Under the pieces are notes generated by a model. That model searched no databases. It worked only from the letters and a program-made list of their open reading frames with translations, and was not told the DNA's origin. The position numbers were made by a program, and so were the translations under genes. This document shows, piece after piece, positions 20,398 to 51,445 of a stretch of 64,000 nucleotides of DNA; position 1 is the stretch's first letter; each line of letters starts with the position of its first letter. The stretch is from contig OZ020520.1 in assembly GCA_963971425.1 (NCBI GenBank), positions 12,523,807-12,587,806 on the forward strand. The letters run 5' to 3'. This DNA is from Bryoerythrophyllum caledonicum. Lineage: Eukaryota > Streptophyta > Bryopsida > Pottiales > Pottiaceae.

Positions 20398-20409
20398 AGA
20401 AGAAGAAGA

Positions 20410-20436
20410 ATGCCGGTCCCCGAAGGGGACCGGCGT
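20410..20436 (-). other. LINE 3'-terminal hairpin, element A
   Basis: In element sense: ACGCCGGTCCCC, loop TTC, GGGGACCGGCAT, a 12-bp stem with one C-A mismatch next to the outer end. It is directly followed by the UUC tail. Relative to element B, the ninth pair is C-G instead of T-A, a compensatory change. Probably the 3' signal read by the element's reverse transcriptase. Confidence 0.8.
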
Positions 20437-20674
20437 GAATAAAGTGTATGTTCGTTCTACTACTAAGACCATGCCCACAGGACAAGGAATAAGTAAACTG
20501 GAACTACTTCCCTCTCTCTCGGGTAGACACTATGTAACAAGTAGCCAAGGAACCACAAACCAACCCACGAGCCACTAACTAATCAACAAGGCAACGAACC
20601 AACCACAAATCAAGCAATTCATCAAGAAACCTCAAAACCAACTAGTCATGATAAATCAAGGCGGGGGAAATTTT

Positions 20675-23600
20675 TTAAGGGGGGTCGTGTGTATCGGGGA
20701 GGGCTTGATTGTTTTTGATTTTGCGTTTATGTAGGAGAATGGACATGGCATATTGAGTAGCAATGGTGTTAATCTTTTTAAAGGAGGTTTTAATTGTTTC
20801 AATGGGTATCTTGAAGGTATCTTCAAGAGATTTCATAGAAGGGATAAAGGTGGTGGCACGAGCGCCGGATGTGATTACAATAAGGGGATCGACATTCCAT
20901 CTGAGGGCGGTGATGTCGTCAATAAGGGGTTGGTATTTATCTATTTTATTTTGGATTGTTTCCGGGGAAAATCTATCATTGCAATATGTGAACTCAATGA
21001 ATTGAATGGTGTATTCTAGGTTGATGTTATCGGGTGGTGGGTCATTATATGGTAGACCTTTAACACAAAGGATGTCCGGTTTGAGCCTAGCGTTGCAATG
21101 ACATCTTTGGGTCATACATGAGCATCGGAGTAGCCATGGGGGGACCGTATTTTCTTGTGGATTGTTATTAAAAGTGCCGGCGTTCATTAGTATGAAACAT
21201 CTCGATTTATTGTAGGAGGTGATTAGTTTGCGGACTTCCCATACCGCATTATTATGTCTTTTAACAATTAGCGAGTGTATGTGGTGGTTTTGGCATTTGA
21301 GTAGAACATGGAGCCATGTGTCCGGGTCCGTTGAGGGGCATATGGGGCATGTTATGGATGGGAATCTTTCTATTCCAAAGAAGAGTTGTTTGCGAGTGTT
21401 TCCCATATACTGACCAGTACGGAATTTGATGAGGCATGTTATTTGTGAGTCTGAAATGATGGGATTTTTCCAAAAGTTTGTAGAGAGTTCATTGTCTATG
21501 TCATTATTGTTAGTCTATTTTTCTATGTTAGGAATATTTTCTGAGATTGTGTCGAGGTTGTTGTAGAGGTCTTGTTTTTTGAGATATTTGCCCAAAAATC
21601 TAATTGGGCCTTTGTCAGGGGTATCTTCTCTGGAAGGCCAATCTTCTTTTTGAAAGTAGTATGGGGTGGCATGGGCATGTTCGTGCGGGTCTTTGGCATT
21701 TTTGTGTGTTTTTTCTCGGCCTTCTTTTGCAAGTTTGTCTGCTTGTTCGTTGCCATCAATGTTGGCATGGGCTCTGACTTTGTGAAGGGTTGTGATTTGT
21801 GTACGGTTTTGTAACATTTGTACCATTGATGTTAGTATTGTTTGGTCGGGGTGGCTATTGTGAAGGGTAGGGTGTGTTATTTGAGTGTTTAGTAGGTAAA
21901 GTGCATTTATACAGTCGGTGAATATATGTGCGGGTTCATTGTTGTATTTTGTTGTGATGATTTGTAGTGTTTTGTGAATGGCCATGAGTTCTGCTCTAAG
22001 GATATTTTGTGGTCCATGGAGTCTTTTGGCTAGTTTAATTTCCTTGGTAGAATTATATATGCCATAGTCAGCTTTTTCTCTGTGCCAAGATCCCGGGCTA
22101 ATTTGTTCGGGTGGTTTAAAGGAGCCATCGGTGTAATAACTGTGTGCGGGGTTAAATTTTGGTGTGGTGTGAGTTGAGTAGTCAGGGAGAGGGGGAGGTG
22201 TGAGGGAGTAGTTTAATGTGATTTTGACATAGTTTAGTTTTAACCATTTTTTACTTTTGTTTACGGGGGTTTGTATGGGTGTTGGTGGGGCCAATTTTGT
22301 GTATATTCGGTGTATGTTTAAATTGTTTGTTATGGTGGTAAGTTCGGCAAGTTGTTCTAGGGAACCTAAGGTTTGAGGTTGATGATGGACGCATAGTATT
22401 TGTAATGTTGATGGCTCGATTTGGGGTTTTTCTAGTTCGGGTGGGATAGTAGGTTCTTCGTATGGTATTGTGTCTGCCTCAAATACTGCAATGATATGGG
22501 AATCTGAAAATGGATTTAAATGTTGGTTGTTGTTTTGATACCAATTGTTGTTCAGTGTGATGATTATTGTATTTGTGTTTTTTGGATCGTGTTTGGCGGC
22601 AAGTCTAGCCCAATATATTGCTTGTTCCATATCTTTCTCGTTGTGGGGGTGAACTATACCTTTACCGATCCATTTATAGTCAAAGGCCTTTCCTAGGGAT
22701 CCAAATATTTTATCTCTTTCGTAGGGTGAGTAGAATTTTTTTAGTTTGGTAGAGCATGTGACCGGGGAAGAAAAGTATGCTTGTTCAATGTTGAAGGATG
22801 TGATTAATGAGTCTAAGATGGGAGTGGGTATTGTGTATTGCGCATTTTTTAGGGGGTCAATTTTTGATATTCGGTATTTATATCTTTGGTATAGCCAGAT
22901 TATTTCGGTTTCAAAGGGTTGGGTCGTTGGTTCAATGTTTGTAGGAGTTTGTAATTTTATATTATATTGATTCCATAACCATTGGAGTCTAGTAATGGGG
23001 ATGGTGTGTAAATGTCGGCTATTTTCTTCGTATAGATGTGCTTGATTGTTATTTATTTGGATTGTGTTTGATGATGTGAGGATATCATTTTCGGGGTTGC
23101 ATTCTCTTGTGTGGATGTTTAAAAGAGGGATAATTATGGGTGGTGTTACGGATCTTGAGTCTGAGAATTGTTCTTGGGGGTGGTGTACTAGTATGATATC
23201 TGAGTATGTTTTGTTTTGAATCTTTTGGTAGTATTGTTTTAGTTTTTTTGTGTTATGTGTGGAGGTGTTGATGTCATGTCGTGGAAATAGGTCTCTTTGG
23301 GGAAGCCATTTATTGTATGTGTTATCATTGTGTTGCCATTGGCATAAATATTTTGAGTATGTATTTTTTATATTATTTGTGTCTGTGTGTTGGATATGTT
23401 TATGGCTTATGATATTATTAATGGAATATATATTAGGATTTTTGGGAATGTGTGTTGGGGGACGAGGGTGGTATGTATGTGGAGGGTTAGGGCGATTGGT
23501 TGGTGTGGGAATATTTCTTGGGATGATGTTATTGTTGAGGGTGATGAATGGATCTTTAAGTGTATGAGAGTATGGGTGTATGTTGCAAGGAGAATGACAT

Positions 23601-26600
23601 GTAGTGGGGCATGTTGAGTGGCAAAATAGTTGTTTAGCAACATTTAGGGCACTTTTTATTAGTTTGGATGGGGTGAAGTGGCAGGTTTTGAAATCCTCAT
23701 TGTTCATGATGTGTGTGCCGTTAGGTAAAGTAATTTGATTTAGTTCAAAAATATTTTTTGAGAGGAGTTTTTGTAGAAGCTTTTGGAAGAGTTGGGCATT
23801 GAGTGTGTTATGATTTAGTGTTTCTTGGCGCCATATTATTTCTAGTGTTGTAGGATTAATGAGGAAGTTTGGGAGTGTACTTCTAAGGTGGGCTTTAGCT
23901 ATATGTTTTAATAAGAAGAATGTTCGTGTTATTGGTGACCTTATGCAGTCACTTTTTTTAATTCTTGGTATGTTTTCGGCGCCACCATATAGGGAAAGGG
24001 CGTAATGAGTTAATCCATTATATATTTTTCCAAGTCTTCTTTTATCATTTAAAGCATTTTGTAGTTGTTCGCCTATACATCGGAGGTATGCGTTTTTGAG
24101 GGAGAAAGCTTCTAGTCCAAATAGATTATGTGGTAGTTGGGTTATTGCGTTTGACATACATTTTGGTAATCCACATATGGTTTTTTGTATGGCTATTATT
24201 TTTTTATCAAGTTTTTTGATAGCTGGCATAGAGTATGGTACACTGTAGAAAATGTATGCCACTCCTGGGCGTAGTACGGTATCAACCATTTTTATTTTCT
24301 GTTTCATGGTGGCTGGGCATGTTGATAGTTCTTTGCATTGTTTGATGAGCTTCGTCGTTGTGGTGCGGATTTGGATTTTCCATTTTAGTGAGGGAACAAG
24401 GTTTGTACCTAAATATATGTATGGTTCATTTTGGTGTAGTATGGGGATCGGTTGGTTGTGGTAATTGATGTTCGAGGCTTGCATTAGGGCTTTGAAAGTG
24501 GTAGGGTTTAATTTGGATTTGTTTGGGCATCCGGTAGCGGCACATTTTGGGACACCTACGTCCATACCAGCCCATTTATAGTATCTATCAATTTTATTTA
24601 GTTGTATTTGTATATGTTGGATTTTGTTAGTTATGACGGCGAGGTCATCTGCATATGCGGCAGAGTTTATTGTGACTTGTGAGGTACCAAACGTGTATCC
24701 GTTGTTGCCTTGTTGTAGCCATCTAAATAATGGTTCTAAGAATATGATGAATAAGTATGGGCTAAGGGTGTCCCCTTGTATGGTTCCTCTTTGTATGGGT
24801 ATAGGTTTTGTTTTCCCAAAGTGTTCACCAATATAGTAGGTGGATGATTGGGAGTAGATGTTTCCTACAAGTATAGTTGCATCTTTTGGATAGCCAAGGT
24901 CCATCATTATTGTTAGTAGTCGGGCATGATCTATTGAGCCAAAGGCGTTTTTAAAATCAACGTATAATATGAATATATCATGGTTAGTGAATTTTACGTC
25001 TTCTAGTGCGGCTATTATGGTTTGTATTTGTCGGGCGGTGCTTCTCTCTGCTCTAAATCCTTCTTGACTATCGTGTAGGATTTTGAATTTTTCACCGTAT
25101 GAGGATAGTATGGAGGTAAGTGTACTGGTGAAGAGTTTGTATATTGTGTTAGCTAGTGCAATTGGCCTATGGTTGGATAGTATAGATGGATCACCTTTTT
25201 GTATAGTAAAATTGTTGCACTTGATTTCCATGAGGTCAGTATTTGTTTTTGTTTATAGCAGTGAGAGAAGAATAGGAATAGTAATTTATGAAACCTTGGA
25301 GGCATGTTTTTGAGTATTGAGTTTGATATGCGGTCTGGGCTTGGGGCTTTGTTGTTACCAAGATTTTGAAGGCATGTGTCGTACGTGGCTTTATTAAGGT
25401 ATTGATGTAGTGGAATTTCTGGCTCGCCTCTTTTGTCCAGGGTATATCCATCTAGGTCATGCCGTGGGTATTGGCGTACTGCACATGTACATTTGTTTTG
25501 ATGTTGTGGTTGGTAGTTACATGTTGGTACTGTTGGTCTATTGGTTTTTGTTTGTTGGTTGAATATTTCATTCGCAATGTCTTCGGGGCTAGTTAGAATA
25601 TTATTGAATTGATCTGTGATACAATTTAGTGGTGGGGATTCTAGATTCTTAAAGACTTTTCTGTTAATTTTCTTAGGGCTAATTTCATATATGTGTCTAT
25701 ATTTCGAGATGGCTTTTTTAATGTTATCTTTGGTGTGTTTTGAGGTTATTTTTCTAGCTTGTATGTTGGCATTTTTTGCAATTAGTGCGATATCATTTAT
25801 CCATGTATCGTAGGGCATATCCGGGGCGGTGGGGTGGGAATTTGGGTATGTTGTAGAGTTAGTAGTTCATTGCATATGGGGTGGTTGCGCCATTGAGAGT
25901 TATTTTTTACCAGTCTTATAGTTTTCCGTATAACATGGTATGTAGTGAGATGTTGTTTCCAAGTTTTAGAAAGTTTTCGTGGTAGATATCCTCCTTGTTG
26001 AGATGTTCTGTTTGTTAACTGGGGTGTTGGATGGGCTCTACAAGTTTGTTCTAGTGTGTTAGAGATTTCTTTGATGAGTGTATCTAGGATTTCACATGCT
26101 TCTTGCCATTGTATTTGTGATAGTTGATTGTTATTTTCTAGAGTATTTAAGAGGGAGTCTATTAGCATGGATTGTTCTTCAAAGAATTTTGTGTTGAATT
26201 TTACTAAGTTGTCTTTTGGGATGGGGTTGAGTATGCGTATAGTGTCATTGTTTAGGATTGTGGGTGTTCTATTAATTAAGGTATTATTTGGTATGTGTAA
26301 ATGTATGGGTGTGTGGTCCGAGTTGAGAATAACATCCTTGTTTGTTGTAGAGGTATATTGTGTATTGTTGTTGGTATTTATATAAAATCCATCTATTAGA
26401 CTCCAATCGCTATAATTGTAGCCGCCTTGTCTAGAGAATTGTGTATCAGTTTTTATGTATGTGAGGTTTAAGTTTTCTGTGAAGTGACGCCATTGGTAGT
26501 CTATGGTTTGGGGGGTGGTACTATGGTTTCCATTTTGGCGTCCAATTAACGCTATATCTCTATTAAAGTCTCCGCATAGTATGTATGTGTGATTGGGGTT

Positions 26601-27770
26601 GTTATTTATTTGAGATGTGATAGTGTTTTGTATGTCATTAATGAATCTAGTATCTTTGGGGTGAGATGGCATATACATGTGAAGGATCAGCCATGGTTGT
26701 AGTGGGTAATTAGTGATTTTGATTATTTGAAGGTAAGGGGATATGTGCATTGGGGTGGGGATTTTTTTGATGTTGCCCGGGAAAGAGTATTTTTTATGTA
26801 TTAGTGTAAGGAGACCACCGCGTCCCGGTGTGTATGGTCTCCGTTGTTGAATACATCTAGTATGTGTGTGTGTATTGTTGAAAATGACTTTATAGTGGTG
26901 AAATAAGTTTTGTATATATTTTGTGGATTTTGTGGCGGATAGTTTTGTTTCTTGTATAACTATAATGGCTGGCGGTGTGTTTGTATGTGTTGGCCATGTG
27001 TTTGTATGTGTGACTAGAGTTTGTAAGCTTGGGAGGGCGGTGTTTAGAGAGGAGGCATTCCATGTGATTATATATGTATTTTCTTGATTTGGATTATTGT
27101 TTTGGTTTTGTGGTCGTAGGTAAGGGGGTGGGGGGGGTGGATGGGTATATTCTGGTATTTGGTCAAGGCATTTTAGTGATTCAATAATTAAATTGTTGGG
27201 AAGGTATGGAAATTTTTGTTTTACAGTTTCTTGTGATGGTGGCATATGATGATTGTGTATAAAATCATATAGTTCTTTATGTATTGATGTTTTATGGTTT
27301 ATAATATTTTGGTTATTTTCAATGAATGATATATAGGGGTGTGGGGTGTTGATGTGTCTTTCGGGGGGGTTTTGTAGATTAGCAAGGGAGTTTAGTAGTG
27401 TATTGGTCCATTGAGTTATGTTTGGGTTTTGTTGATTTAGTAGGAGGTTACATTCGTCTACGTGTGGGTGGATGGTAGTTACTATGGCATATAGGATGTG
27501 TGGTGAGGGGTGTTCGTTTAGTTGTTGTATATATTGGATAATGTGTGGGTGTGTGTTGGCGTATGATAGGTGTAGTGTATGTGTGGGTTTTAGTATAGGT
27601 GCAAATGATTGGGCAATATGTCTATGTTCCGGTTGTAATTTTATTGTGTTTGGTATAAAATATATTTTGGCATTCTTTTTGTGTTGTGTTCGGTGTCTTT
27701 TTAGTATGTTTGGCATAGGTCCTGGGTTGGTTTCTATGTCTCCTCCAAGTGTTAGTAGTAGTTTATAGTG
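20675..27770 (-). pseudogene. LINE A ORF2: 2A, APE endonuclease, reverse transcriptase, RNase H, Cys/His motif
   Basis: Replication polyprotein of about 2,350 codons. It begins with the 2A motif HYKLLLTLGGDIETNPGP and a basic segment (MPNILKRHRTQHKKNAK). Endonuclease, about 27.1-26.2 kb: TWNASSLNT, IQETKLSATKS, MYMPSHP, CGDFNRDIALIG, LNSDHTP. Reverse transcriptase, about 25.2-24.5 kb: ILYVDFKNAFGSIDH, QRGTIQGDTLSPYLF, YADDLAVI. RNase H, about 22.1-21.7 kb: YTDGSF, LRAELMAI, IFTDCINALYL, VRAHANIDGNEQADKLAKEG. C-terminal CPIC...H...C near 21.33 kb. Lesions: a lost base in the Pro codons near 25.80 kb, a frameshift near 25.2 kb at YKKGDPSIL, and a TAG at 21515. Between RT and RNase H lie about 650 residues without a known domain. 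The domain order is like I/Ingi-type LINEs rather than ordinary plant L1. Confidence 0.92.
27717..27770 (-). other. 2A-like ribosome-skipping motif, element A downstream copy (intact)
   Basis: Encodes HYKLLLTLGGDIETNPGP followed by MPN. It keeps the D-x-E-x-NPGP signature in which, in known 2A peptides, the Gly-Pro bond is skipped. It sits directly before the endonuclease ORF. Its frame stays open upstream for at least about 45 codons, so it is not an artefact of choosing the Met. Confidence 0.85.
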
Positions 27771-28891
27771 TGGTGGTTTGTTATTATGTTTAATGGTTAT
27801 ATGTTTTTTTGTTTTTCTAGTATATTTTTTTGTTTTTTTTTTAAATTTTATCCTTGTATTGGGGGATGTGAGTGTTATGTTTTTTTTTCTTTTGAATGGG
27901 TTTTCTTTGGATTGATTTTCTTAGGTTTTTTGTTTTGTTTTGGTTTATTGTTTTGTATATTATTTTTGTTAATTAGTTTGGTGTTTGTTTTTGTACTTTG
28001 GTTTGTGTTAGTTTTAATGTGTAGATTTTGACTTGTATTTTTGCGTCTTTTTTCGTATGTGGTGGAGTATACGTAAGTGTATGTGTTGTAGGTAGTATTT
28101 GTATATTTTATTTTGTACTTTTTTGATTGTATGTATTCGTCTTTGTATGTGTGTGAGAGTATGTATGTGTTTCGTTGATGATGCGTGGTTGTCTTTGCGT
28201 GTGTATATGTAGTTGTGTTTGATTTTATACTAGTATTTAAGTGTATGTTTGTATAAGTACGTGCCTCAATATTCATTATGGTATTTGTATTATGTTGTTG
28301 ATGTGATATATTTGTGGTTTTGAAAAGGGGGGCAAGTTTTTGGGCTTTGTGGTCGTATTCGGGTTGTAGTTTTATGGTATTTGGTATGAAATATGTTATG
28401 GTATTCTTTTTGTGCGGAGCGGGGTGTCTTTTTAATATGTTCGGCATGGGTCCGAGGTTAGTCTCTATGTCTCCTCCTATTAATATTAGTATTTTGTGGT
28501 AGATTGGTTTTTTCTTTTGTTTGAGAGTTTTTTGTTTTGGTATGTGGCTTTGGTATTTTATTTTTTGTTTATTTGATTGTATGTATTTGTCTTTATATGT
28601 GTGTGTGTATATGTATGTGTTTCTTTGATGGTGTGTGTTTAATTTTGTATGTGTGTGTGTATATGTAGTTGTATTTGGTTTTGTATTAGTATTCATATGT
28701 GTGTTTGTATTAATATGCGGCTCAATATTCGTCTTGGTATTCGTATTAGTATTCGTATTAGTGGATGTTTTTAACTTTTTATGTGGCCATGTGTTTATGT
28801 GCCTAGTTGTTTTTGTTTCGGCATTGTGTATATGTGTGTGTGTATGTGTATATGTGTGTATGTGTGTGTATGTTATTATTATTATTATCAT
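27771..28891 (-). pseudogene. LINE A leader ORF, Thr/Asn/Tyr/Lys-rich, two tandem 2A modules
   Basis: The 338-codon frame 28891-27875 starts with low-complexity Tyr-Thr-His and Asn-Thr repeats. It contains HHQRNTYIYTHTYKDKYIQS, then a first 2A-like motif (28448-28498), then a second HHQRNTYILSHTYKDEYIQS block. Near a run of nine A's (about 27884-27892) the frame must shift to enter the second 2A and ORF2. The two modules are clear duplicates. No known domain. Confidence 0.75.
28448..28498 (-). other. 2A-like motif, element A upstream copy (NPGP changed to NLGP)
   Basis: Encodes KILILIGGDIETNLGP followed by MPNILKRHP. The invariant Pro before Gly is Leu, which is expected to abolish ribosome skipping. 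The downstream copy at 27717-27770 is intact. Confidence 0.85.
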
Positions 28892-28912
28892 TATTATTAT
28901 TATTATTTTCTT
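28872..28912. repeat. (TTA)n microsatellite
   Basis: A run of TTA units with one TCA interruption, inside the 5' side of the element A leader. Confidence 0.85.
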
Positions 28913-29497
28913 TGTATTTGTCCCCGTGTGTATGTGATTGTTATGTTTGAGAGTATATTTATGTGGGTTTATGTTGGTATGTGAGGGGGTATGTAGGTTA
29001 TTATTTTTATATGTGGTGTTAGTGTTATATGTTTTGGAGTTTATATAGTGTTTTATGTTTGTATTAGTATGTATTTTGGTATTTATACTGATGTTTATAT
29101 TTGTATAGGTATTTGTACAAATGTCAGTATTTTTGTTTTGTATAATACATGTATATGTATATGCATTTGTATTTGTATTGTGTACACAGTATTTGTTATA
29201 GTATTTGTTTTTATTTTTATTTTTATTCTTTGTTTTTATACAATGTATGTATACCGTATTGTATATCGTATATTTTGTGGTATATGTCTTTGTATGTATT
29301 TATGTATTCTACCATGTATACTGATGTATAAATCTTCGTATATATGGTGGAAAATACTACATAGGTGCTACCAAGTATTAGTATAAATTTATAGTATGTA
29401 TGGATAGTGGCTAGATGTATTCTATTGCGGTCGTATTCTATAAAATACGGGTGAGGTGTTGAGTCTTTGGCTTTGAGGTTGTCTTTCTTCACATTTT

Positions 29498-31145
29498 TTA
29501 CGAGTCTTCTTCAATTGAGGTGTGAGGTTTGGACCCCGTGATGTTTTGCAACATTGCAAAGGTGGTACCAACACATTCTTGGATCTTCAACATTTGGTCC
29601 TTGATTTCTTGGAGTTCTTTGGCTTTTGCTTCCGCTTGTTCTTTGACTTCTTGCCTCAAAATCTTGTTATTTGCTTCGAATGCCTCCGCTAGGTCCTTCT
29701 TGGTGATTGCTTGGGATGGGTTGTGAAGTTTGAAGGTCTCCACCGTGTTAATGATGGCTTTGTTGATGTCTTCAAAGCCAAACTCTATGAGTTGGGCTTG
29801 GGTGGGAGGCTCAATTCCATCTATGCTTCTTCTATGAGGAGCAAACTCCACGAAGTGGCCACCTATGGGAATGGTTTTCCCCGTGAATGCTCTATACACG
29901 ATTGGGTTAGCACACACCACATTTGCACTTCCATTATGGCAAACTCCATTGTCTTTGTGAAACCAAATAGAGCAAACATTGAAATTTCCCACAATTGTAT
30001 GAATAGCATTAGTGGTCTCAATAACATTCATAAGTATAGGGAGGTGGGAGAGTGTTAGGGTGAGAGCGTCTTTCTTAGCTTTCATTTCTTTGGTGATACC
30101 AGGTTCCTCCAAGGGGCTTCTTTGTTTGCATGACTTCTTGACGTGCGGTTACTTGTAGCTCTTGGATTTTCTTGGTTTGTTGCGGGGTGGTGGTCAAGAT
30201 GAAGTCAAAGCCATCTCTTTTTGCCTTCTGCACGCTAGTCACTTCAAAATCATGCCCACGTTTAAAGCTAGATTCAAGGACCTCTTTAAAGAGGTGATTA
30301 GCGGCAATGTTATGCAACGAAGGACTTTGAATTTTGACTGATAAGCTAGAATGATGTGCAATGCTATGGTAAGTTTTACATACCTTTCCCACCACGTTGA
30401 CCTCATCGATTTCGAGAATGAAGGGTCTAATCCCTTTGAGGAGGAGTAGGCCATCAATCTCCGGTTTAGCAAGGTGTAGTTTGATTAGTTCTGACCAAAC
30501 ACCTTTTTTCCCTCCTCCTTGTTTAATGCTTAAGCAATGAATTGAAATGGGTTGAATGAGCTTCTTACCAAGAGGGATGTCCATGTCTTTGAGGCGGTTA
30601 GTAACCATCTCTTTGACTTCATCATGCAACATAGGGTTAGTGGGTAGTTCAAAATGGATAGCTACTTGGAAATCTAAAGCTAAACCCGTACCTTCATCCA
30701 CATGAATGTTGGTTGGTACTTGTGTGAGGTTGTAGTGTTGCCCTCCTAGGCCATCTGCCTCTCTCTAGTGTGGATAGAGAATCTGTGGGATGTGTGGGAA
30801 GGCCATTCGAGCTTGCTTGACTTCTCGGGCTTCATTCTCTTTGAGCCCTCTGGTCACCATGTCTTCGGTTGTTTTTTCGTAAAGGAGCTCATCTAATCCC
30901 TCTTCCACAGCTAGGTCTTCCATCACTTGGAAACCTAGCCAAAATTTGAAGCAACTAATGTCAGGGTTCGTGATGAGTGCCATACCTTTTTTTCCCATGT
31001 CATCTTGGGCGTTTCTGCTCTTCTTGCTGCTCCCTGGTTCTTCTTCGTTTCGTCTGGAACCTTTCTCTTTTGGAGCTGTGACTTTTTGTACAATCAACTC
31101 GTCAACTTCCATCTCCTCATTGAACATGATGCTCCTACTACTCAT
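29498..31145 (-). pseudogene. LINE A ORF1 (family-specific protein), broken
   Basis: Likely start ATG 31145 (MSSRSIMFNEEMEVDELIVQ). The first part is Lys/Glu/Ser-rich (APKEKGSRRNEEE), then FKFWLGFQVMEDLAVEEGLDE and QARMAFPHIPQILYP. A TAG at 30765 breaks the frame just there. The frame resumes through YNLTQVP, LALDFQVAIHFELP, a core with GVWSELIKLHLAKPEIDGLL and VVGKVCKTYHSIA, then shifts near 30.11 kb into KAKKDALTLTLS, IWFHKDNG, HNGSANVVCANPIVYRAF and HFVEFAPHRRSIDGIEPPT. It ends in a predicted coiled coil. By position it is the RNA-binding ORF1 protein of the LINE, but I recognise no RRM or zinc knuckle. Confidence 0.75.
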
Positions 31146-32365
31146 TTCAAGGCAGCCCTTATGATGTAAATTTTTTTGAAAGAAAGGTTTGAGGGGACTT
31201 ACCTGGATTTGATGGGAGGCGTTGATGATGGCTGATGGTGACTTGTGGTGGTCTTCACCTGCTGTAGTCAGTTCTTCCCTAGCGGCTGAGTGTCGTGGGA
31301 GGCTTGATTTGGTGGGAGCTTTCTGAAGGAGCCGTTCGCTCCTGCAACGTGCGTGGCGCGCTTCCCTGTTTGCGTGGGCTACCTCCTCGCTCTTGTTCCA
31401 GTCCCTTGTCCTTGCTCCACTGTTGGGCTTCTTGAGAGCCTTGGCTCTCGCTCCTCTTCTTGTCTTCTTCTTCGGCCTGTCTTCTTGTTCTGTGTCCACT
31501 TCGTTTCGTCTTGCTCTCTCTTCTTCCGCTGGTTCCTTTCTTGCTCGTCCGCTTCTGATCCTGATTTCTTCCCTGGGCTTCACCCGTAGTCTGTGTTTGC
31601 GTGTCGCACTTCTCCGCTTCGTCCCCCACCTGCTTTTCTTCGCGCTCCTCTCGAGCTTGGGCTCCCTTCCTGATGTTGTAAGTGCCTTGGCGGCGCTTTT
31701 CTCTGCTGGTTCCTTGGAGGTCTTGTGTTTGGGGAGGGCTTCGTGCTTGTGTTCCGTGTCCTCGGCTGAGGTTGATCTCCTGCTTTGGCTCTTCCTCCGT
31801 TTTGTTTTGGTTGAGCCGATCTGCACATTCAGAATTTGTGAGTGAGTTATGTGGGTCGAGAACTTACCTTTGGAGTTGTGGTAGTCGCGATCGTGTCTGT
31901 GTGCGTCTTGTTTTGTTGTTGTCCTCTCCTGTGTACGTTGGGTCGTCTTGTGTGGCGTCGTTTGTCTCAAAGTGGTGCTTGAAGCGAGGAGTACAATAGC
32001 TGTCTCGTTTTGGCGTTGATGGCGGAGGTTGGTAGTAACTCTGTGGAGCTGTGTCCCTAGCCGGTGTTGTTGTCGGGGGGTTACAGGAGTCCGTCTATGG
32101 TCGTAGGTCCTGGTCCTTGGTGAGGAGCGACAATGTGTTCGAGGAGCGAGGGCTGTCCAGGGTCGGTGTTGATGTCGAGGGGTTGGGGGAGTTTGTCTAT
32201 ATGTTGAGGGTCTTGGGCCTTGGTGATGAGCGACCCTTTGTTCGCGGAGCGATGTCTGTCCAGAGTCAGGTTGGGTCTTGATCCGGGTTGAGGGAGGCGA
32301 GCAGTGTGCTTGGGGGAGGAGGTCTATCCAGCTTCTGTTCCTGTGAGGGGAGTGTACTCGGGGGT

Positions 32366-40070: not shown

Positions 40071-41474
40071 ATGGCGGTAGAGGAAGGGGCTGAAGAATTA
40101 TTCAGTGGAGAAACGGCGGAGGACATGGTCACGAGAGGACTCAAAGAGGAGGAAGCCATAGAGGCATCCAGAGCAAGACTAGCCTTCCCCCGCATCCCAC
40201 AAGTACTCTACCCCATGGCAAGAACGGGAGTTGAAGGACAACATTACAACCTCACTCAAATACCTTTTGACATCAAAACAAATAAGAATTCGGGGCTATC
40301 CATTGACTTCCATGTTGCCATCTATTTTGAAACCCCAAAAACCCCTCTCATGCATGATGATGTTAAAGAAATGGTTAAGGCAAGGCTAAAAAAGATGGAC
40401 ATTATTCTAGGAATAGAACTCATTGACCCAATTGCAATTCAAAGCTTAAGCATAAAAAACGGGAGAACTAAAGGAGTTTGGGCGGGGTGCTTTAAATTGC
40501 ACCTCCTCAAGCCAGAAATTGATGGATTAATGCTACTCAAGGGCTTAAGACCCTTCATTCTAACAATTGATGGAGAATGTGTAGTGGGTAAAGTATGTAA
40601 AACATACCATGGAATTGCCAACGGCTCTAACTTATCCGTGAAGGTCAAGAGCGAAGCCCTAGTGGGAATATCCGCGCAAGCACTCTTCAAAGAAGCACTT
40701 GGAAATAGCTTCCACCGAGGACACGAGTTTGAGATATCAGGAATACAAAAGGCCGCTAACGACTCGCATGCCTTTATCATTGCCACGACGCCGCAACAAG
40801 TGAAGAAGATACTATTGCACCACATCACCATGCGTGGGGAAGTATTGCAAACAAGACAAGTCCTTGACACAAAAGGACCCAAAGGTACTATCGAAACTAA
40901 AGCTAAAAAAGATGCATTGACTCTTACCCTTTCACCTCTTCTCATCTCGCTTAATGTGGAAAGCACTACCCATGAAATTTATAGAGTCATCGATGGAGCT
41001 AATGTAAGATCAATTTGGTTCCACCGGGACAATGGCACTAACCACAATGGTAGTGCCAATGTCGTATGTTCTAACGCCATTGTCTATAGAACTTTTGTGA
41101 AGAAAACACATGTACTTGGTGGAAACTATGTGGACTTCTCACCCCACCAAAGAAGCTTGGAAGGAATCGAACCACCAACCGATGAACAAGTGAAAGCTTT
41201 TGGCTTTGACAACGTTAACACGGCAATTGTTAACACTATATCCACCTTCAACATGCAAGAGAAGAGTGACAACATCACCAAAAGAGACATGGTGGAATTA
41301 TTGGAGGACAACAATAAGAAGATGAGGCAAGAAAATAGGGACTACACCAACAAACTACACGATGAATTGAAGATACAAATGGAAGAAATTCAAGTGTCTA
41401 TGCTTGCCACACTTGAAGTTATGAGAGCCTTTGCGGGCAAAGTCAACAAACCAAGACTTGAGCCAAACATGTGA
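40071..41474 (+). CDS. LINE B ORF1, intact (467 aa)
   Basis: Best-preserved copy of the family's ORF1. The frame is also open upstream (KFKFWLGFPAIEA before MAVEEGAEELF), and the aligned copy in A begins about 80 residues earlier, so the true start may lie upstream or be joined by splicing. Conserved blocks: MVTRGLKEEEA, AFPRIPQVLYP, YNLTQIP, MHDDVKEMVKARLKKMDI, KGVWAGCFKLHLLKPEIDGL, VVGKVCKTYHGIA, FHRGHEFEISGIQKA, KAKKDALTLTLS, HNGSANVVCSNAIVYRTF, YVDFSPHQRSLEGIEPPT. The C-terminal ~60 residues (MVELLEDNNKKMRQENRDYT) look like a coiled coil, suggesting a multimer. No RRM, zinc knuckle or known gag domain is seen. Inferred role: RNA binding and particle assembly, as for other LINE ORF1 proteins. 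Confidence 0.8.
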   Translation: MAVEEGAEELFSGETAEDMVTRGLKEEEAIEASRARLAFPRIPQVLYPMARTGVEGQHYNLTQIPFDIKTNKNSGLSIDFHVAIYFETPKTPLMHDDVKEMVKARLKKMDIILGIELIDPIAIQSLSIKNGRTKGVWAGCFKLHLLKPEIDGLMLLKGLRPFILTIDGECVVGKVCKTYHGIANGSNLSVKVKSEALVGISAQALFKEALGNSFHRGHEFEISGIQKAANDSHAFIIATTPQQVKKILLHHITMRGEVLQTRQVLDTKGPKGTIETKAKKDALTLTLSPLLISLNVESTTHEIYRVIDGANVRSIWFHRDNGTNHNGSANVVCSNAIVYRTFVKKTHVLGGNYVDFSPHQRSLEGIEPPTDEQVKAFGFDNVNTAIVNTISTFNMQEKSDNITKRDMVELLEDNNKKMRQENRDYTNKLHDELKIQMEEIQVSMLATLEVMRAFAGKVNKPRLEPNM

Positions 41475-41694
41475 CCTTCAAAGACCACATAGTAATACAT
41501 ACATACCCCCTAGTATATTATACTACTCAATATAGTCTAGACTCTTCATACAATACTAGTGTAGACCACATTGCTGAATTTCCCTACACATACTGTATTT
41601 CCCTCACAAATAAATACAAAAAAAATACGTATATACATACTGGAACATATGTACGTATACGAATAAGTATACAAATACAGCTACATATACACAT

Positions 41695-42893
41695 ATGGAT
41701 ACAAATACATATACGGATACATATACAAATACAGATAAGAATACAGACACGAATACATCTACAAGTACAGATACGAATACATGCATAAACACATGTACGG
41801 AAAAAAATACTAATGTAAATACAAATACAAGTAAGGATATGGGCACGAATACAGATATAAGAATAAATACTCAAACAACAAATCAACCACCACAAAAATC
41901 AATACACAAAATAGAAAAAATGATAATAATATACTACTTCCTACACAAACTAAGTAGAGATTCCAAAAACAAAAGTATCAAAACCGAAATAAAAAATAAA
42001 AGGAATAAGAGAAAAGATGGAATAAATAATAGAAGGAAGAAGAAAATAAGTATCATAACTACATGTAACAAAATAGGAAACAATAAAAATGAAAACAATC
42101 ATGGAATTTTTGTAATAAAGATACATAAGAGTAGAAGAGATTCTAAACCCAAAAACCATCAAAAGACAAGGAATATTAAAATGGCTAGAAATAAGAAAAT
42201 CAAGGAGAGTAAAAAGAGATATAATAAATTAAATAGGAAGAAGATAGATATTCATAAAATTTCAAAGGTTTCAATTAGAGCAAGTAATATTAAAAATAAA
42301 ATAACAAAAATGGAGAGGATATGTAAGAAGAAAATAAAGGGTAAAGTAGAAAACCATGATCATAAGAAAACAAATAATAAGAACATAACAATAAACAGTA
42401 GTACTAAATTAGAATATGCTTCCTAAGAAATTCAAAAATAAGGGATGGAAAATTAACCAAAATAGTAACGAGAAATAATTATCATAAGAATTCAAACAAT
42501 GAAAATATAGCAACAAACAAAAAAACTAAAAATAGAATATGCTTCCTAAGGAAATCCAAAATAAGAGATGGAAAATTAACAAAATTAGTAATGAGAACTA
42601 ATTATCATAAGAATACAAATATTAAAAACATAGCTATAAACAGCAGTACTAAAAATAGAATATGTTTCTCAAGAAATTCAAAAATCAGGGATGGAAAATT
42701 AACCAAACTTGTAATGAGAAATAAAATTTTCAAAGTAAAAATAAATAGAAAAGGTAGTAATAATAAAATAGTACAGACCAAAAATACAAATTGGAATATA
42801 AATTACAGGGATAAAAGGAAAGTTAATAGTAATATTAAAATTGATATATATAAAGATGAGAAGAGTTTGCGATTAAAGAGTAGAAATTTGTAG
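41695..42893 (+). pseudogene. Lys/Asn-rich coding remnant between ORF1 and the 2A leader, element B only
   Basis: Starts with Asn/Thr/Asp-rich repeats (TYTDTYTNTDKNTDTNTSTS), then becomes very basic (KNKRNKRKDGINNRRKKKIS). It reaches a TAA at 42426 inside the first unit of a 123-bp repeat; the frame 42591-42893 carries the later units (RNSKIRDGKLTKLVMRNK). Elements A and D have no counterpart of about 1.1 kb here. It may be an expanded array or a captured sequence. Confidence 0.5.
42411..42735 (+). repeat. 123-bp tandem repeat (41 codons), about 2.7 copies
   Basis: Equivalent AGAATATG words start at 42411, 42534 and 42657. Each unit includes AAATAAGRGATGGAAAATTA and AGAAMTAATTATCATAAGAA. The period is an exact multiple of three and a basic 41-residue repeat is readable in units 2 and 3. 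Confidence 0.9.
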
Positions 42894-43348
42894 AGAGTAT
42901 GTAGAATAATAAAAATAGAAGGGGGGATTTTTGTCTTGCTGGCCGTGGGGCGTCGGAGGCGTCAAAAATAGAATCACTAGAAATAGAAATTCTAATGATA
43001 GTAAGAATATATACGAATCTGATTGAAATAAATATCAATAAATTTTTTTCGTATACTGGTACGTATCTGTATAAATATCTGTATAATGGTACGTATATAG
43101 ATACATATACTGTTGCGTATACTAATACAAATACTGATACTTACACTAATACAAATACTAATATCAATATTGGTACGTATACTAGTACAAATTATAACAC
43201 GAATACTAACAAGGATACTGATACAAACACCGAGACAAAAACCGAGGCATATACTAATACGAACATACGAATAAATACTAATATAAAAACAAATAAAAAT
43301 ATATATACACACACAAAGACAACAACACACCATCAACGTAATACATAC

Positions 43349-43390
43349 AGAGAAGAACGCCGGTCTCCAAAGAAGGCCAGCGGGAATCAT
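43349..43390 (-). mobile_element. 42-bp LINE 3'-end stub inside element B
   Basis: AGAGAAGAACGCCGGTCTCC...GGCCAGCGGGAATCAT interrupts the HHQRNTYIYTH block. It resembles the reverse complement of the LINE hairpin with its UUC tail. Flanks AATACATAC (43340-43348) and AACACATAC (43391-43399) look like a 9-bp target duplication with one mismatch. An extremely 5'-truncated insertion is the simplest reading; the hairpin is decayed. Confidence 0.55.
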
Positions 43391-43501
43391 AACACATACA
43401 TATACATACACACACACAAAAACAAATACATACAATAAAAAAAACACCAAAATCACATTCAAAAACAAAAAAATCTAAGACAAAACAAAAATCCCATCTA
43501 C

Positions 43502-43552
43502 TACAAACTTCTAATATTAATTGGAGGAGACATGGAGACTAACCCAAGACCC
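43502..43552 (+). other. 2A-like motif, element B upstream copy (NPGP changed to NPRP)
   Basis: Encodes YKLLILIGGDMETNPRP followed by MPNILKRHP. The skipping-site Gly is Arg, so it should be inactive, parallel to the NLGP change in element A. Confidence 0.85.
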
Positions 43553-44011
43553 ATGCCGAACATATTAAAAAGACACCCCACTTTGCACAAAAAGAATGCC
43601 AAAACATATTTCATACCAAATACTAATACAAACACCAAAACAAACAATTGTACAAACCACAAAGTATATAATAACACCGCATATGAAAAAAAGGACTTAA
43701 AAACCACTTTAAAAACCAACATAAACCCACAAACAAATAGTCTTAAACATAATAGTTACATATACACACGGACAAAAACAACCAAGATAAAATACAACCA
43801 ACCATACATACATCCATACACCACTAAAACAAAAACAACCACAAAAAACACATGGACAAAAAATAAACTAAACACAAAAACAACTACACCTACTATAAAA
43901 ATAAATAAACCCACAACTCACACACAAAATACAAACATCCACCTACCCCCAAACCAACAAGCCAATAATAACACAACAAAGCCTTTAAAATACACCACTA
44001 AACATATATAC

Positions 44012-44062
44012 CACAAACTTCTACTACACCTAGGAGGAGACATTGAAACCAACCCGGGACCC
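44012..44062 (+). other. 2A-like motif, element B downstream copy (intact)
   Basis: Encodes HKLLLHLGGDIETNPGP followed by MPNILKRHPTSHKK. Full D-x-E-x-NPGP signature, directly before the endonuclease region. Confidence 0.88.
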
Positions 44063-47000
44063 ATGCCCAATATACTAAAAAGACATCCTACATCACATAA
44101 GAAAAATGCCAAAATCTACATTATATCTAATACCATAAAACTCCAACCAGAATATGAACACATTGCAAAACCCTTCGCACCATTTCTAAAAAACACACAC
44201 ATTACACCACATACACAACACTTTCCACCCAAACATTGCCCAATATATACAACAAAAAAATACGCATCCACCACCCCACATCTTATATGCACTAATAATC
44301 ACTACTCATCCAAGCATAGATGAATGTAACCAACTTCTAAATCCACAAAATTTGAACACAATTACATGGACTAATACACTCCTACAAACCTTATTAACCT
44401 TACAAAACCCACCAGAACGACACATTTACACTCCACACCCCTATACTAAATTCCTAGTAGACAACCAAAATATTATAAACCATGAGAACTCAATACATAA
44501 AAGACTATACGACTTCTTACATAGTCAAGACATACCACCCTCAAATGATATAATAAAACTAAAATTCCCTTACCTCCCTAACAACCTCATAAATGAATCA
44601 CTAAAATGCCTAGACCCTATACCAGAATACACCCACCCACCCCCACCTCTTCCCTACATCCCTCCTCAAAATCAAAACATTAGACCAAACCAAGAAAATA
44701 CATACATAATCACATGGAATGCCTCCTCACTAAACACTGCCCTTCCTAGCTTACAAACTCTAGTCGCAAACACAGACACACCACCGGCTCTTATAGTTAT
44801 ACAAGAAACAAAACTAACCGCCACAAAATCTACAAAATATATACAAAATATATTTCAAAACTATAAATTCATCTTTAACAACACACATGCACTTACAAGA
44901 TGCATGCAACAAAGGAGACCATACACACCGGGCCGCGGTGGCCTCCTTACATTAATACACAAAAAATATACATTCCCCGGCAACATCAACAAAATTCCTA
45001 CCCCAATGCACATATCACCATACATTCAAATAATTAAAATCACTAATCACCCACTACAACCGTGGTTAATCTTTCACATGTATATGCCATCCCATCCCGA
45101 AGATACTAGATTTCTCTTAGATATACAAAACATTATTACAACCCATATTAATAATCATCCCAATCATACATACCTATTATGTGGAGACTTCAATAGAGAC
45201 ATAGCGCTAATTGGCCGCCAAAATGGAAACCACCACACCCCCCCTCAAAACATTGATTACCAATGGCACCGCTTCACAGAAAACTTAAACTTCACTTACA
45301 TCAATACCGATACACAATTCTCTAGACAAGGTGGCTACAATTATAGTGATTGGAGTCAAATAGATGGTTTCTATATAAATACAAACAACAACACACAATA
45401 CACCGCCACAACAAACAAAGATATTATTCTCAATTTGGACCACTCACCCGTACAACTGCACATCCCAAATAACACACTAATTAGTAGAACTCCTACAATC
45501 CCAAACAAAGACACTATATGCATACTCAACCCCATCCCAAAAACCAACATAAAATAATTCAACACAAAATTCTTCGAAGAAAACTCCGTACAAATAGACT
45601 CCCTCATAAACACTCTTGAAAACAATAGCCAATTAACACAAGCTCAATGGCAAGAAGCATGCCACTCTCTAGACAAACTCATCAATAAAATCTTTGATAC
45701 ACTAGAACAAACTTGTAGAGCACACCCAATATCCCAAATGACAAACAGAACCTCTCAACAAGGCGGGTATCTACCCCGCAAACTTTCTAAAACTTGGAAA
45801 CAACACTTAACTACATACCATACCATACGTAAAACCATTAGAATTGTAAAAAACAACCCTCAATGGCGTAACCACCCCATACACAACGAACTACTAACTA
45901 TACAACACATCCAAATCCCTACCCCGCCGCCTCCGGACCTTCCCCACGATACATGGATAAAAGATATCGCGATAATTGCAAAAAATGCCAACATACAAGC
46001 CCGGAAAATAATCACAAAATACACAAAAGAAAACATTAAAAAAGCCATCTCAAAATACATACAACTGTTCAAAATCAGCCCCAAAAAAATTAACAAAAAA
46101 GTCTTTAAAAACCTTGAATCTCCACCAATGGATTGTATCAAAGATCAATATAATAATATTCTAACTAGCCCCGAAGACATTGCGAATGAAATATTTAACC
46201 AACAAACAAAAACCAATAGACCAACAGTACTAACATGTAATTACCAGCCACAACATACAATAGGATGCACATGTGCAATACGCCAATACCCTTGGCACGA
46301 CCTGGACGGATATACCCTTGACAAACGGGGCGAACCAAAAATTCCACTTCATTAATACCTCAACAGAGCCACAAATGACACATGCCTTCAAAATCTTGGA
46401 AATAATAAAGCCCCAGGCCGAGACCGCATACCAAACTCAATACTAAAAAACATGCCTCCAAGATTTCACAAGCTATTATTTCTGTTCTTCTCCCACTGCT
46501 ATAAACAAAAACAGATACCAAACTCATGGATATTAAGTACAACAATTCTACTATACAAAAAAGGCGACCCGTCCATACTACCCAACCATAGACCAATTGC
46601 ACTAGCTAACACAATATACAAACTCTTTACCAGTACACTCACCTCCATACTATCCTCATACGGCGAAAAATTCAAAATCCTACATGATAGTCAAGAAGGA
46701 TTTAGAGCAGAGAGAAGTCCCGCACGACAAATACAAACTATAATAGCCGCACTAGAAGACGCAAAGTTTACTAACCAAGATATATACATACTATACGTGG
46801 TCTTCAAGAATGCCTTTGGCTCAATTGACCATGCCCGACTTCTAGCAATAATGATGGACCTTGGTTACCCAAAAGATGCAACTACACTTGTTGGAAACAT
46901 CTATTCTAAATCATCTACATGTTATACCGGTGAACACTTTGGGAAAACAAAACCTATATCCATCCAAAGAGGAACTATACAAGGGGATACCCTCAGCCCA

Positions 47001-50000
47001 TACCTATTCATTATATTTCTAGAACCACTACTCAGATGGCTAGAAAGAGGAAATTACGGATACACTTTTGGCACATCACAGGTCATAATAAACTCTGCCG
47101 CATACGTGGATGACCTAGCCACTATAACTAACAAAATCAAATCAATCCAAATACAACTAAACAAAATTGATAGATATTGTAAATGGGCCGGTATGGACGT
47201 AGGTGTCCCAAAATGTGCCGCTACCGGTTGCCCAAACAAATCCAAATTGAATCCTACCACGTTCAAAGCCCTAATGCAAGCCTCGAACATCAATTACCGC
47301 AATCAACCGATCCCCATACTACACCAAAATGAACCATACATATACTTAGGCACAAACCTTGTTCCCTCACTAAAATGGAAAATCCAAATCCACACCACAA
47401 CGACAAAACTCATCAAACAATGCAAAGAACTAACAACATGCCCAGCCACCATGAAACAAAAAATAAAAATGGTTGATACCGTACTACGCCCAGGTGTGGC
47501 ATACAGTTTCTACGGTGTACCGTACTCTATGCCAGCTATCAAAAAATTTGATAAAAAAATAATAGCCATACAAAAAACCATATGTGGATTACCAAAATGT
47601 ATGTCAAACGCAATAACCCAACTACCACATAACCTATTTGGACTTGAAGCTTTCTCCCTCAAAAACGCATACCTCCGATGTATAGGCAAACAACTGCAAA
47701 ATGCTCTAAACGATAAAGGAAGACTTGGGAAAATATGTAATGGATTAACTCACTATGTCCTTGCCCAATATGGTGGCGCTGAAAACATACCGAGAATTAA
47801 AAAAAGAGACTGCATAAGATCACCAATAACACGAACATTCTTCTTATTAAAACATATAGCTAAAGCCCACCTTAAAAGTACGCTCCCGAACTTCCTCACT
47901 AATCCTACAACACTAGAAATACTATGGCGCCAAGAAACATTAAATCATAACACACTCAATGCCCAACTCTCCCAAAAGCTTCTACAAAAACTCCTCTCAA
48001 AAAATATTTTTGAACTAAACCAAATTATCTTACCTAACGGTACACACATCATGAACAATGAGGACTTCAAAACCTACCACTTCACCCCATCTAAACTAAT
48101 AAAGAGTGCCCTAAGTGTTGCTAAACAACTATTTTGCCACATAACATGCCCCACTATATGTCATACTCCTTGCAACATACACCCATACTCTCATACACTT
48201 AAAGATCCATTCATCACCCTCAACAATAACATCATCCCAAGAAATATTCCCACACCAACCAATCCCCCTAACCCTCCACATACATACCACCCCCACCCCC
48301 CAATATACATCCCCAAAAACCCTACCACATACCCCATTAATAATATCATAAACCATAACATATCCAACACACAGACACAAATAACATACAAAATACCTAC
48401 ACAAAATATCTATGTCAATGGAAACACAATGATAATACATACAATAAATGGCTCCCCCAAAGAGACCTTTTTCCACGGCATGACACCAATACCTCCACAC
48501 ATAATACTGAAAAATTAAAACAATACTACCAAAAGATCCAAAACAAAATATACTCAGATATCATCCTTGCCCACCATCCACAAGAACAATCCTCAGACTC
48601 AAGGTCCGTAACACCAACCATAATTATCCCACTCTTAAACATCTACACAACAGAATGCAACCCCGAAAATGATATCCTTACATCCTCAAACACAATTCAA
48701 ATAGATAACAATCAAGCACATCTATACGAAGAAAACGGCCGACATTTACACACCATACCCATTACCCGGCTCCAATGGTTATGGAACCAATATCATACAA
48801 AATTACAAACCCCTACAAACATTGAACCAACAACCCAACCCTTTGAAACCGAACTAATATGGCTTTACCAAAGATATAAATATCGAATACCAAAAACTGA
48901 CCCCCTCAAAAATGCGCAATATACAATACCCACCCCCATTTTAGACTCACTGATATCATCCTTTAACATCGAACACTCATACTTTTCCTCCCCGATCACA
49001 TGTCCTACCAAACTAAATAAATTCTACTCACCGTACGAAAGAGACAAAATATTTGGATCCCTCGGCAAGGCCTTTGAACACAAATGGACCGGAAATGGAA
49101 TAGCTCACCCCCACAACGAGAAAGACATAGAACAAGCCATACATTGGGCTAGACTTGCCGCCAAACACGATCCAAAAAACACAAATACAATCATCGTCAC
49201 ACCGAACAACAATTGGTACCAAAACAACAACCAACATTCAAACCCATTCCCAGATTCCTACATCATTGCATTATTCGAAGTAGACACAATACCATACGAA
49301 GAACCTAATATCCCACCCGAGCTAAATAACCCCGAATAGAGCCATCTACATTACAAATACTATGCGTCCATCATCAAAATCAAAACCTGGGCTCCCTAAA
49401 ACAACTTGCAGAACTTACCTCCATAACAGACAATCTAGACATACAACGACCATACACAAAACCGGCCCCACCAACATCCATACAAACCCCCGTAAACAAA
49501 AGTAAAAAATGGTCAAAATTAAACTATGACAATAACACATTAAACTACTCCGTCACACCTCCCCCTCTCCCAGACTACCCAACTCATACGACACCAAAAT
49601 TTAACCCCGCACACAGTTATTACATCGACGGCTCCTCTAAACCACCGGAACAAATTAGCCCGGGCTCTTGGCGAAGAGAAAAAGCTGGCTATGGCATATA
49701 TAATTCTACCAAAGAAATTAAACTAGCCAAAAGACTCCATGGACTACAAAATATCCTCAAAGCAGAACTCATGGCCATTCACAAAACACTACAAATCATC
49801 ACAACAAAATACAAAAATGAACCTGCACATATATTCACCGATTGTATAAATGCACTCTACCTACTAAACACTCAAATAACACACCCAAGCCTTCACAACA
49901 GTCACCCCGACCAAACCATACTAACATCAATGGTACAAATGTTACAAAAACGTACACAAATCACAACCCTTCACAAAGTCAGAGCCCATGCCAACATTGA

Positions 50001-51081
50001 TGGCAACGAACAAGCAGACAAACTTGCAAAAGAAGGCCGAGAAAAAACACACAAAAATGCCAAAGACCCTCACAAACATGCTCATGCCACCCCATACTAC
50101 TTTCAAAAAGAAGATTGGCTTTCCAAAGAAGATACCCCCGACAAAGGCCCAATTAGATTTCTGGGCAAATATCTCAAAAAACAAGACCTCTACAACAACC
50201 TGGATACAATCTCAGAAAATATTCCTAACATAGAAAAATGGACTAACAATAACAACATAGACAATGAACTCTCTACAAACTTTTGGAAAAACCCCATCAT
50301 CTCAGACTCACAAATAACGTGCCTCATCAAATTCCGTACGGGTCAGTACATGGGAAACACTCGCAAACAACTCTTCTTTGGAATAGAAAGATTCCCATCC
50401 ATAACATGCCCCATATGCCCCTCAACGGACCCCGACACATGGCTTCATGTGCTACTCAAATGCCAAAACCACCACATACACTCTCTAATTGTTAAAAGAC
50501 ATAACAAAGCAGTATGGGAAGTCCGAAAACTAATCACCTCCTACAATAAATCGAGATGTTTCATACTTATGAACGCCGGCACTTTTAATAGCAATCCACA
50601 AGAAAACACGGTCCTCCCATGGCTACTTCCATGCTCATGTATGACCCAAAGATGTCATTGCAACGCTAAGCTCAAACCGGACATTCTTTGTGTCAAAGGT
50701 TTACCATACAACGACCCACCACCCGAGAACATCAACCAAGACTACACCATTCAATTCATCGAATTTTCATATTGCAACGATAGATTTTCCCCGGAAACAA
50801 TACAAAACAAAATAGATAAATACCAACCCCTCATAGACGACATCATTGCCCTCGGCTGGAATGTGGACCCCCTTATTGTTATCACATCCGGCGCTCGTGC
50901 CACCACCTTTATCCCAGCTATGAAATCTCTCGAAGATACCTTCAAAATACCCATTGATACAATTAAAACTACCTTTAAAAATATCAACACCATCGCTATT
51001 CAACATGCCATGTCTATTTTACTGCATAAATGCAAAATCGAAAACAACCAAGTCCTCCCTGATAGGCAAGACCCCCCTTAG
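44012..51081 (+). pseudogene. LINE B ORF2: 2A, APE endonuclease, reverse transcriptase, RNase H, Cys/His motif
   Basis: Same plan as ORF2 of A. Endonuclease 44352-45557: TWNASSLNT, IQETKLTATKS, MYMPSHPEDT, CGDFNRDIALIG; the usual SDH is LDH (LNLDHSP). TAA at 45555 and again at 46353 (LH-stop-YLN, where A has LHQYLN). Reverse transcriptase 46452-48518: motif A reads ILYVVFKNAFGSIDH, so the catalytic Asp is Val; motif C is YVDDL. Frameshifts lie near 44.33, 48.50 and 49.34 kb. RNase H 49.6-50.05 kb: YIDGSS, LKAELMAI, IFTDCINALYL, GNEQADKLAKEG. C-terminal CPIC...H...C near 50.41 kb. Inactive by several independent lesions. Confidence 0.92.
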
Positions 51082-51292
51082 GAACTTCGCCACTTTGTCT
51101 CTTCCTGATTGGCTGCCTGTTTGGTTTTGCTTTTTGTTGTTTAGTTAGTTTGGTCGTGGTTGGTCGTTGTTGGTTGGTTTCTGGCTACTCGTTACATAGT
51201 GTCTACCCTCGAAAGGGGGAAGTAGTTCCAGTTCGCTAATTCCTCGTCCGGTGGGCATGGTCTTAGCAATGGAACGAACAGACACTTTATTC

Positions 51293-51319
51293 ACGCCGGT
51301 TCCCTTCGGGAACCGGCGT
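51293..51319 (+). other. LINE 3'-terminal hairpin, element B
   Basis: Perfect 12-bp stem: ACGCCGGTTCCC, loop TTC, GGGAACCGGCGT. It is followed at once by the (TTC)n tail. The loop triplet has the same sequence as the tail unit. Confidence 0.9.
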
Positions 51320-51416
51320 TCTTCTTCTTCTTCTTCTTCTTCTTCTTCTTCTTCTTCTTCTTCTTCTTCTTCTTCTTCTTCTTCTTCTTCTTCTTCTTCT
51401 TCTTCTTCTTCTTCTT

Positions 51417-51445
<29 letters not shown>
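51320..51445 (+). repeat. (TTC)n tail of LINE B, about 41 units
   Basis: Uninterrupted TTC repeat from the hairpin to the target-site duplication. It creates poly-Ser and poly-Arg ORFs that are not genes. Elements A and the 58.8-kb stub end in about five units. Confidence 0.97.

Follow-up and report, generated by a model that had tools for sequence, protein, structure and literature searches.

The window analysed here, a stretch of 64,000 nucleotides from the land plant Bryoerythrophyllum caledonicum (Bryopsida; contig OZ020520.1 of assembly GCA_963971425.1, positions 12,523,807 to 12,587,806), contains two long interspersed nuclear elements (LINEs) in opposite orientation, element A on the minus strand (20396..35335, from an approximate 5′ end through its (TTC) tail) and element B on the plus strand (37658..51445). 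Self-BLAST shows that they share 87% identity across 7.4 kb and that both are seated inside one older relative, copy C, whose pieces lie on the minus strand. All three carry a motif resembling the 2A (StopGo) peptides, which reads GDIETNPGP in A (27743-27717, minus) and B (44036-44062, plus) and GVIETNPGP in C (35526-35500, minus). Taking the evidence below as a whole, we consider it probable that these elements represent a Dualen/RandI-type LINE family of a land plant, in which the second open reading frame (ORF2) is expressed by StopGo from a leader-2A-ORF2 arrangement. A plant host, as the earlier note on this DNA had assumed, is borne out by the genome, in which the GRAS, dirigent and radial spoke families have 75, 15 and 3 matches, counted as exon-like pieces. 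Such a set suggests a seedless land plant with swimming sperm, of the kind found among bryophytes, lycophytes and ferns.

Downstream of the 2A, ORF2 encodes, in order, an N-terminal region, an APE endonuclease, a reverse transcriptase (RT), a PCIF1-like domain, RNase H, a CCHC finger and a restriction-like endonuclease (RLE). Pfam matches in both elements confirm the APE, RT and RNase H that had been claimed downstream of the motif. The APE lies at 26307..27071 (minus) in A (PF03372, E = 6e-7; PF14529, E = 7e-5, below the cut-off) and at 44709..45263 (plus) in B (PF03372, E = 1.3e-6); the RT at 24407..25204 (minus; YADD; PF00078, E = 9e-27) and 46566..47351 (plus; YVDD; E = 4.8e-23); and RNase H at 21716..22138 (minus; PF00075, E = 2.3e-11) and 49618..50040 (plus; E = 1.4e-12). 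The CCHC finger with the RLE (PD...E...K) occupies 20675..21360 (minus) in A and 50407..51081 (plus), through the ORF2 stop, in B. The earlier description of an intact GDIETNPGP before the polyprotein in A and B thus holds for the motif and its sites but not for the polyprotein, since ORF2 of A is broken by two frameshifts and one in-frame stop, while that of B is divided among several frames, with LDH in place of the SDH motif of its endonuclease.

Because B and a separate genome copy, L012, are near-identical copies in decay, selection was judged only from A versus L012, where the ratio of nonsynonymous to synonymous differences (pN/pS) is 0.13-0.31 in eight ORF2 regions (RLE not included), a pattern of purifying selection. 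The corresponding values for B versus L012 run from 0.10 to 1.67, with few changes outside the RT block, and do not favour such constraint. B and L012 are otherwise ~96-99% identical, but a block centred on the RT (46401-47300) reaches only 90-92%, which suggests a possible exchange between subfamilies, by template switching or by gene conversion.

Is the motif conserved beyond these copies? A degenerate codon pattern for GDIETNPGP has 1,402 exact matches in the 437-Mb, 894-contig genome and none for the reversed control, against 0.0005 chance matches expected genome-wide from the base composition of the window; a chance motif was therefore dropped as an explanation. The motif codons differ synonymously, with 370 of 370 differences among aligned copies at third positions, in a set picked by the motif itself that mixes old and young copies. 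We also took copies independently of the motif, via the downstream anchor KIYFIPNT (1,162 matches, 89 of the 100 listed lying in the range that the motif listing covers). The exact motif stands at the correct distance in 66 of these 89 listed copies; of the remaining 23, 12 were inspected, and each has an in-frame motif with one or two changes, chiefly NPGP to NLGP. Among metagenomic homologs, which were aligned solely on post-motif sequence (90 of 121 proteins) but had been found with a query that did contain the motif, it is present in 41 of the 49 having at least 20 upstream residues, and the remaining eight vary within NPGP. The motif has the D(V/I)ExNPGP core of 2A/StopGo peptides, and the hexapeptides preceding it are L-rich (e.g., LLLLGG and LLLLSG), resembling StopGo motifs 2/6 when compared by eye. 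A conserved 2A-like motif ahead of ORF2, as first proposed, is thereby upheld, and its reading as a 2A peptide appears well supported.

The same core, in frame with the replicase, characterizes the 2A-bearing LINEs of trypanosomes (L1Tc) and animals; unlike the latter, named APE-type in the title of Odon 2013, the window family has a predicted RLE too. Viral StopGo sequences with an LLLLSG-like upstream motif share the L-rich hexapeptide and the core octapeptide (PMC12846837), whereas the 2A of the window is encoded by a plant retrotransposon, and that 2026 survey reports no natural use by plant viruses. If skipping were confirmed, the family would thus provide a natural StopGo in a land plant.

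We then turn to the leader, whose Thr/Asn/Tyr-rich character ahead of ORF2 proved correct. In B it spans 43439..44035 (plus), in the frame of the 2A, is of low complexity and holds a degenerate earlier 2A copy. Across 23 copies, namely A, B and 21 more from the genome, each picked by the motif, 41 stops interrupt the 2A frame in the 450 nt upstream of the 2A, compared with 203 and 212 for the two alternative frames; the 2A frame is stop-free in 11 leaders, the other frames in none, and it has the lowest or tied count in 20. Substitutions in 27 copy pairs are distributed over the three codon positions as 364/428/369 in the leader, compared with 593/344/1188 in ORF2 of the same pairs. With five polyglutamine copies removed (25 pairs), the leader shows somewhat fewer first-position changes (259/376/321), but no third-position excess of the ORF2 type (543/312/1042). 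The leader frame is therefore held open well beyond chance without ORF2-like codon constraint, a combination that fits a discarded run-up peptide ahead of StopGo. Several observations count against this interpretation. Stops occur in the 450-nt leader of 12 of the 23 copies, as they would in decayed copies; the copies are related, so that the counts are not independent; part of the stop depletion could stem from tandem repeats whose period is a multiple of three; and the first Met of the leader varies, leaving leader initiation unaccounted for. Besides polyglutamine and repeats of the TETY type, leaders include additional degenerate copies of the stretch around the 2A. Those in the leaders of L012 and element B (GGDMETNPRPMPN) look as if leaders might grow through duplication of this stretch.

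Alternatively, NPGP could be a mere N-terminal edge of ORF2, with translation starting at a Met directly after it (NPGP-M) and no skipping taking place. A Met follows NPGP in 21 of 21 genome copies, and the leader lacks ORF2-like codon constraint, as a start at this Met would allow. Yet the residue after NPGP is not Met in 9 of the 41 homologs, three homologs (P0135, P0144 and P0199) carry a tandem pair of 2A-like motifs upstream of the endonuclease, and the 60 nt that lead up to the motif have a weak codon periodicity (55/55/97 over the same 27 pairs). The stop depletion of the 2A frame and the retention of the motif in anchor-found copies speak against it as well, and we regard a Met start as quite unlikely compared with StopGo.

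The C-terminal end of ORF2 bears on the lineage of the family. The CCHC residues and the RH, PD, E and K residues are invariant in 10 of 10 aligned C-terminal pieces drawn from the family, the wider clade and other LINEs, and a CCHC-RLE profile matches R2 retrotransposon structures (E = 4.5e-9 to 7e-4) across both the CCHC and the PD parts. We thus read this region as a putative second endonuclease with kinship to the R2 enzyme. Dualen/RandI is defined by the joint presence of an APE and a PD-(D/E)XK-type RLE (PMC4640811, PMC3636483), and RNase H has been reported for it too (PMC4640811); the family combines all three. In a quick tree of 111 rows, its RT falls into a 77-row clade (Shimodaira-Hasegawa-like approximate likelihood ratio support 99) with proteins of Parachlorella and Pleodorina, separate from human L1, R2, Ulp1-bearing and CR1-like rows, labels such as the last being ones that we presume from the Pfam domains of the rows. 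Because of the APE-RT-RNase H-RLE order and the RT clade shared with green-algal proteins, the family is best classified, from its sequence, as a Dualen/RandI-type LINE and not as I/Ingi. The RLE profile also matches P0074 (eukprot), P0032, P0037-P0039, P0043, P0055, P0058 and P0084 of the RT clade, as well as the family members P0004 and P0005.

Three points tell against this assignment. The RT tree contains neither named Dualen/RandI, I or Ingi references nor a plant L1 of known name. Moreover, neither string matching nor the RLE profile detected an RLE in P0051, P0068, P0076, P0082 and P0238, the five named green-algal relatives checked, which may be truncated models. Finally, the KPD-to-E spacing exceeds the 12-14 residues of R2. 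One of these relatives, P0076 of Pleodorina, has PF02099 (Josephin) listed beside its RT and endonuclease, possibly a protease module.

The earlier note had instead suggested an I/Ingi-like LINE new to plants. Trypanosome LINEs do carry a 2A (PMC4981915), and an APE occurs with RNase H in the I group (PMC4640811) and in Ingi. But the window family has a CCHC-RLE after RNase H, where an I/Ingi element would have none, its RT groups with the Parachlorella and Pleodorina rows, and by sequence the PDB matches of the RT are headed by three R2 entries (E = 8e-23 to 3e-22), followed by human L1 (5e-13) and, lower, Bombyx R2 (6e-11). I/Ingi affinity is therefore highly improbable, an exclusion that rests mainly on the RLE since the tree has no named I or Ingi reference. 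The RT phylogeny proposed at the outset does place the RT apart from the human-L1 rows, while leaving I/Ingi affinity unsupported. An ordinary plant L1, with an APE only and an RT within L1, was likewise dropped, given the RLE and an RT outside the rows holding human L1, in agreement with the first assessment.

The Dualen/RandI elements of green algae, as described in the literature, resemble the family in having an APE and an RLE per element, RNase H, a short 3′ tandem-repeat tail and chlorophyte relatives (PMC4640811, PMC3636483, PMC3747384). The family differs from them in its land-plant host, the 2A before ORF2 and perhaps the PCIF1-like domain, and its tail is (TTC)n, whereas the review lists (ATT)n and (CTATTT)n. 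In a 2013 table, RandI appears under green algae only, and L1 and RTE under flowering plants (PMC3747384), so the family would add land plants to the known hosts of dual-endonuclease LINEs. A long stretch of ORF2, used as query, returned 14 matches, none a full-length near relative, and a scan of viral contigs with P0002 matched no relatives. Rao 2025, by its title a survey of eukaryotic 2A sequences, may have covered elements of this type before.

Between RT and RNase H, ORF2 contains a PCIF1-like methyltransferase fold, at 22373..23068 (minus) in A and 48806..49210 (plus) in B (PF12237, E = 2.6e-11). PF12237 is found in 17 of 17 PCIF1-like pieces, a biased count, as the pieces were picked because they matched and four of the 21 printed were left out; P0068 matches below the cut-off. 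The fold matches that of the cap-specific adenosine methyltransferase PCIF1/CAPAM, from which the domain differs in its identity of only 16%, its setting within a LINE polyprotein and its degenerate NPPF motif, which reads HPHN in A and B. On the one hand, the domain might still catalyse adenosine methylation, with the capped RNA of the element itself as its substrate, as the fold, the selection on the domain and the NPEY, NPPN or HPPF found at the NPPF position of some relatives would allow; HPHN in the window family and the single Pro that is invariant across the alignment make this unlikely. On the other hand, it may be a putative RNA- or cap-binding module that lacks catalytic activity and would hold on to the element RNA, which we favour slightly, given a degenerate catalytic motif kept under purifying selection (A versus L012). 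Iyer and colleagues have reportedly treated PCIF1 relatives, and their account may also cover fusions to retroelements. A cap-methyltransferase fold retained by selection within a retrotransposon is of interest in itself.

At the 3′ end, a hairpin with a stem of 9-10 bp precedes (TTC)n. It lies at 20412..20434 (minus) in A, followed by the (TTC) tail to 20396, and at 51295..51317 (plus) in B (fold z −5.2), followed by ~42 (TTC) units at 51319-51446. A pattern in which the outer pairs and some of the loop are fixed has 869 genome matches and none in the control. In the 100 matches listed, stem pairs 7 and 8 alternate between C-G and U-A, and 519 of 600 cells over six stem positions are standard pairs, compared with a mean of 485 and a maximum of 501 in shuffles that ignore relatedness. 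Against a conserved stem, standard pairing at pairs 6 and 7 is seen in no more than 65 and 73 of these 100. Rfam gave no match at its gathering score.

The family is large and recently active. Of 150 PF12237 matches scored among 2,614 candidates, 33 are tied in bit score, each within a frame of exactly 3,087 codons that no stop interrupts. Three of these young copies, read at both ends, each measure 9,882 bp from a shared start, two of them having four further 5′ bases in common; they are 99.96-100% identical over the 2.6 kb through the motif and have separate target duplications of ~10-13 bp each, offset or imperfect in two. The size of 13-14 kb first reported therefore fits A (~14.9 kb) and B (~13.8 kb) but not the family, given these copies of ~9.9 kb.

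ORF1 is more variable in its occurrence. In B it is a 506-codon open frame (39954..41474, plus), and in A two overlapping, frameshifted frames (29501..30764, minus); it matches no Pfam family, and its structure model (mean predicted local distance difference test score 43) is too poor for use. A and B differ at 133/73/164 sites by codon position, and identity among the B, A and C pieces is 47-59%. By tblastn, ORF1 lies upstream of the 2A in 17 of 20 genome loci. It is missing from L012, L015 and L019, and likewise from L030 and L031, so that in the three young copies none was found over the 7.8-8.0 kb preceding the 2A. Genome-wide, 99 of 99 scored candidates (of 3,599) match at 67-100% identity, one being B itself.

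Taken together, these features suggest the following mechanism. The element RNA would consist of ORF1 (in most copies, not the youngest three), the low-complexity leader frame, the 2A peptide and ORF2. Ribosomes would enter the leader frame upstream and translate a run-up of nearly free sequence; at the L-rich GDIETNPGP peptide, the Gly-Pro bond would not be formed, the leader would be let go and translation would continue, so that the ORF2 protein begins with Pro (mostly Pro-Met). This protein would recognise the 3′ hairpin and the (UUC)n tail and, presumably employing one or both endonucleases, insert by target-primed reverse transcription, giving target duplications of ~10-15 bp. It is tempting to speculate, as a tentative and rather less probable idea, that a LINE lineage shared by green algae and land plants took up a cap-methyltransferase fold as a means of recognising its own capped 5′ end, by binding or by changed chemistry, and that this branch added StopGo to detach the replicase from a freely evolving leader, which would amount to a two-part solution for making and targeting a giant ORF2 protein. 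The strongest additions to the earlier note are the second endonuclease, the PCIF1-like fold and a leader that is selected to stay open but free in sequence, the last offering a natural experiment on the upstream needs of StopGo; the young long-frame copies make these questions testable.

Within the window, B lies between copies of a 15-bp target-site duplication (TACATCATCATGCAA, at 37643-37657 and 51446-51460), and the flanks of A, identified by self-BLAST and flank reading, have TCAACTRCAC in common. The length of A perhaps counts a 1.7-kb foreign insert, judged by eye: an A+T-rich, non-coding stretch of differing character at 32370-34130 resembles another insert. Copy C, traced by self-BLAST, is represented on the minus strand by an endonuclease-region piece past the A insertion (19439..20381), the C-terminal part of ORF1 with leader and 2A, placed also by motif position (35344..37642), and an N-terminal ORF1 part past the B insertion that contains stops (51447..52088). 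Tandem arrays of GGCCGGGCGCG type occupy 9796-10054, 14920-15503 and 19186-19435. At 54257-57490, two neighbouring minus-strand open reading frames, one with DUF7869 (E = 2e-47), are perhaps another mobile element or a domesticated gene.
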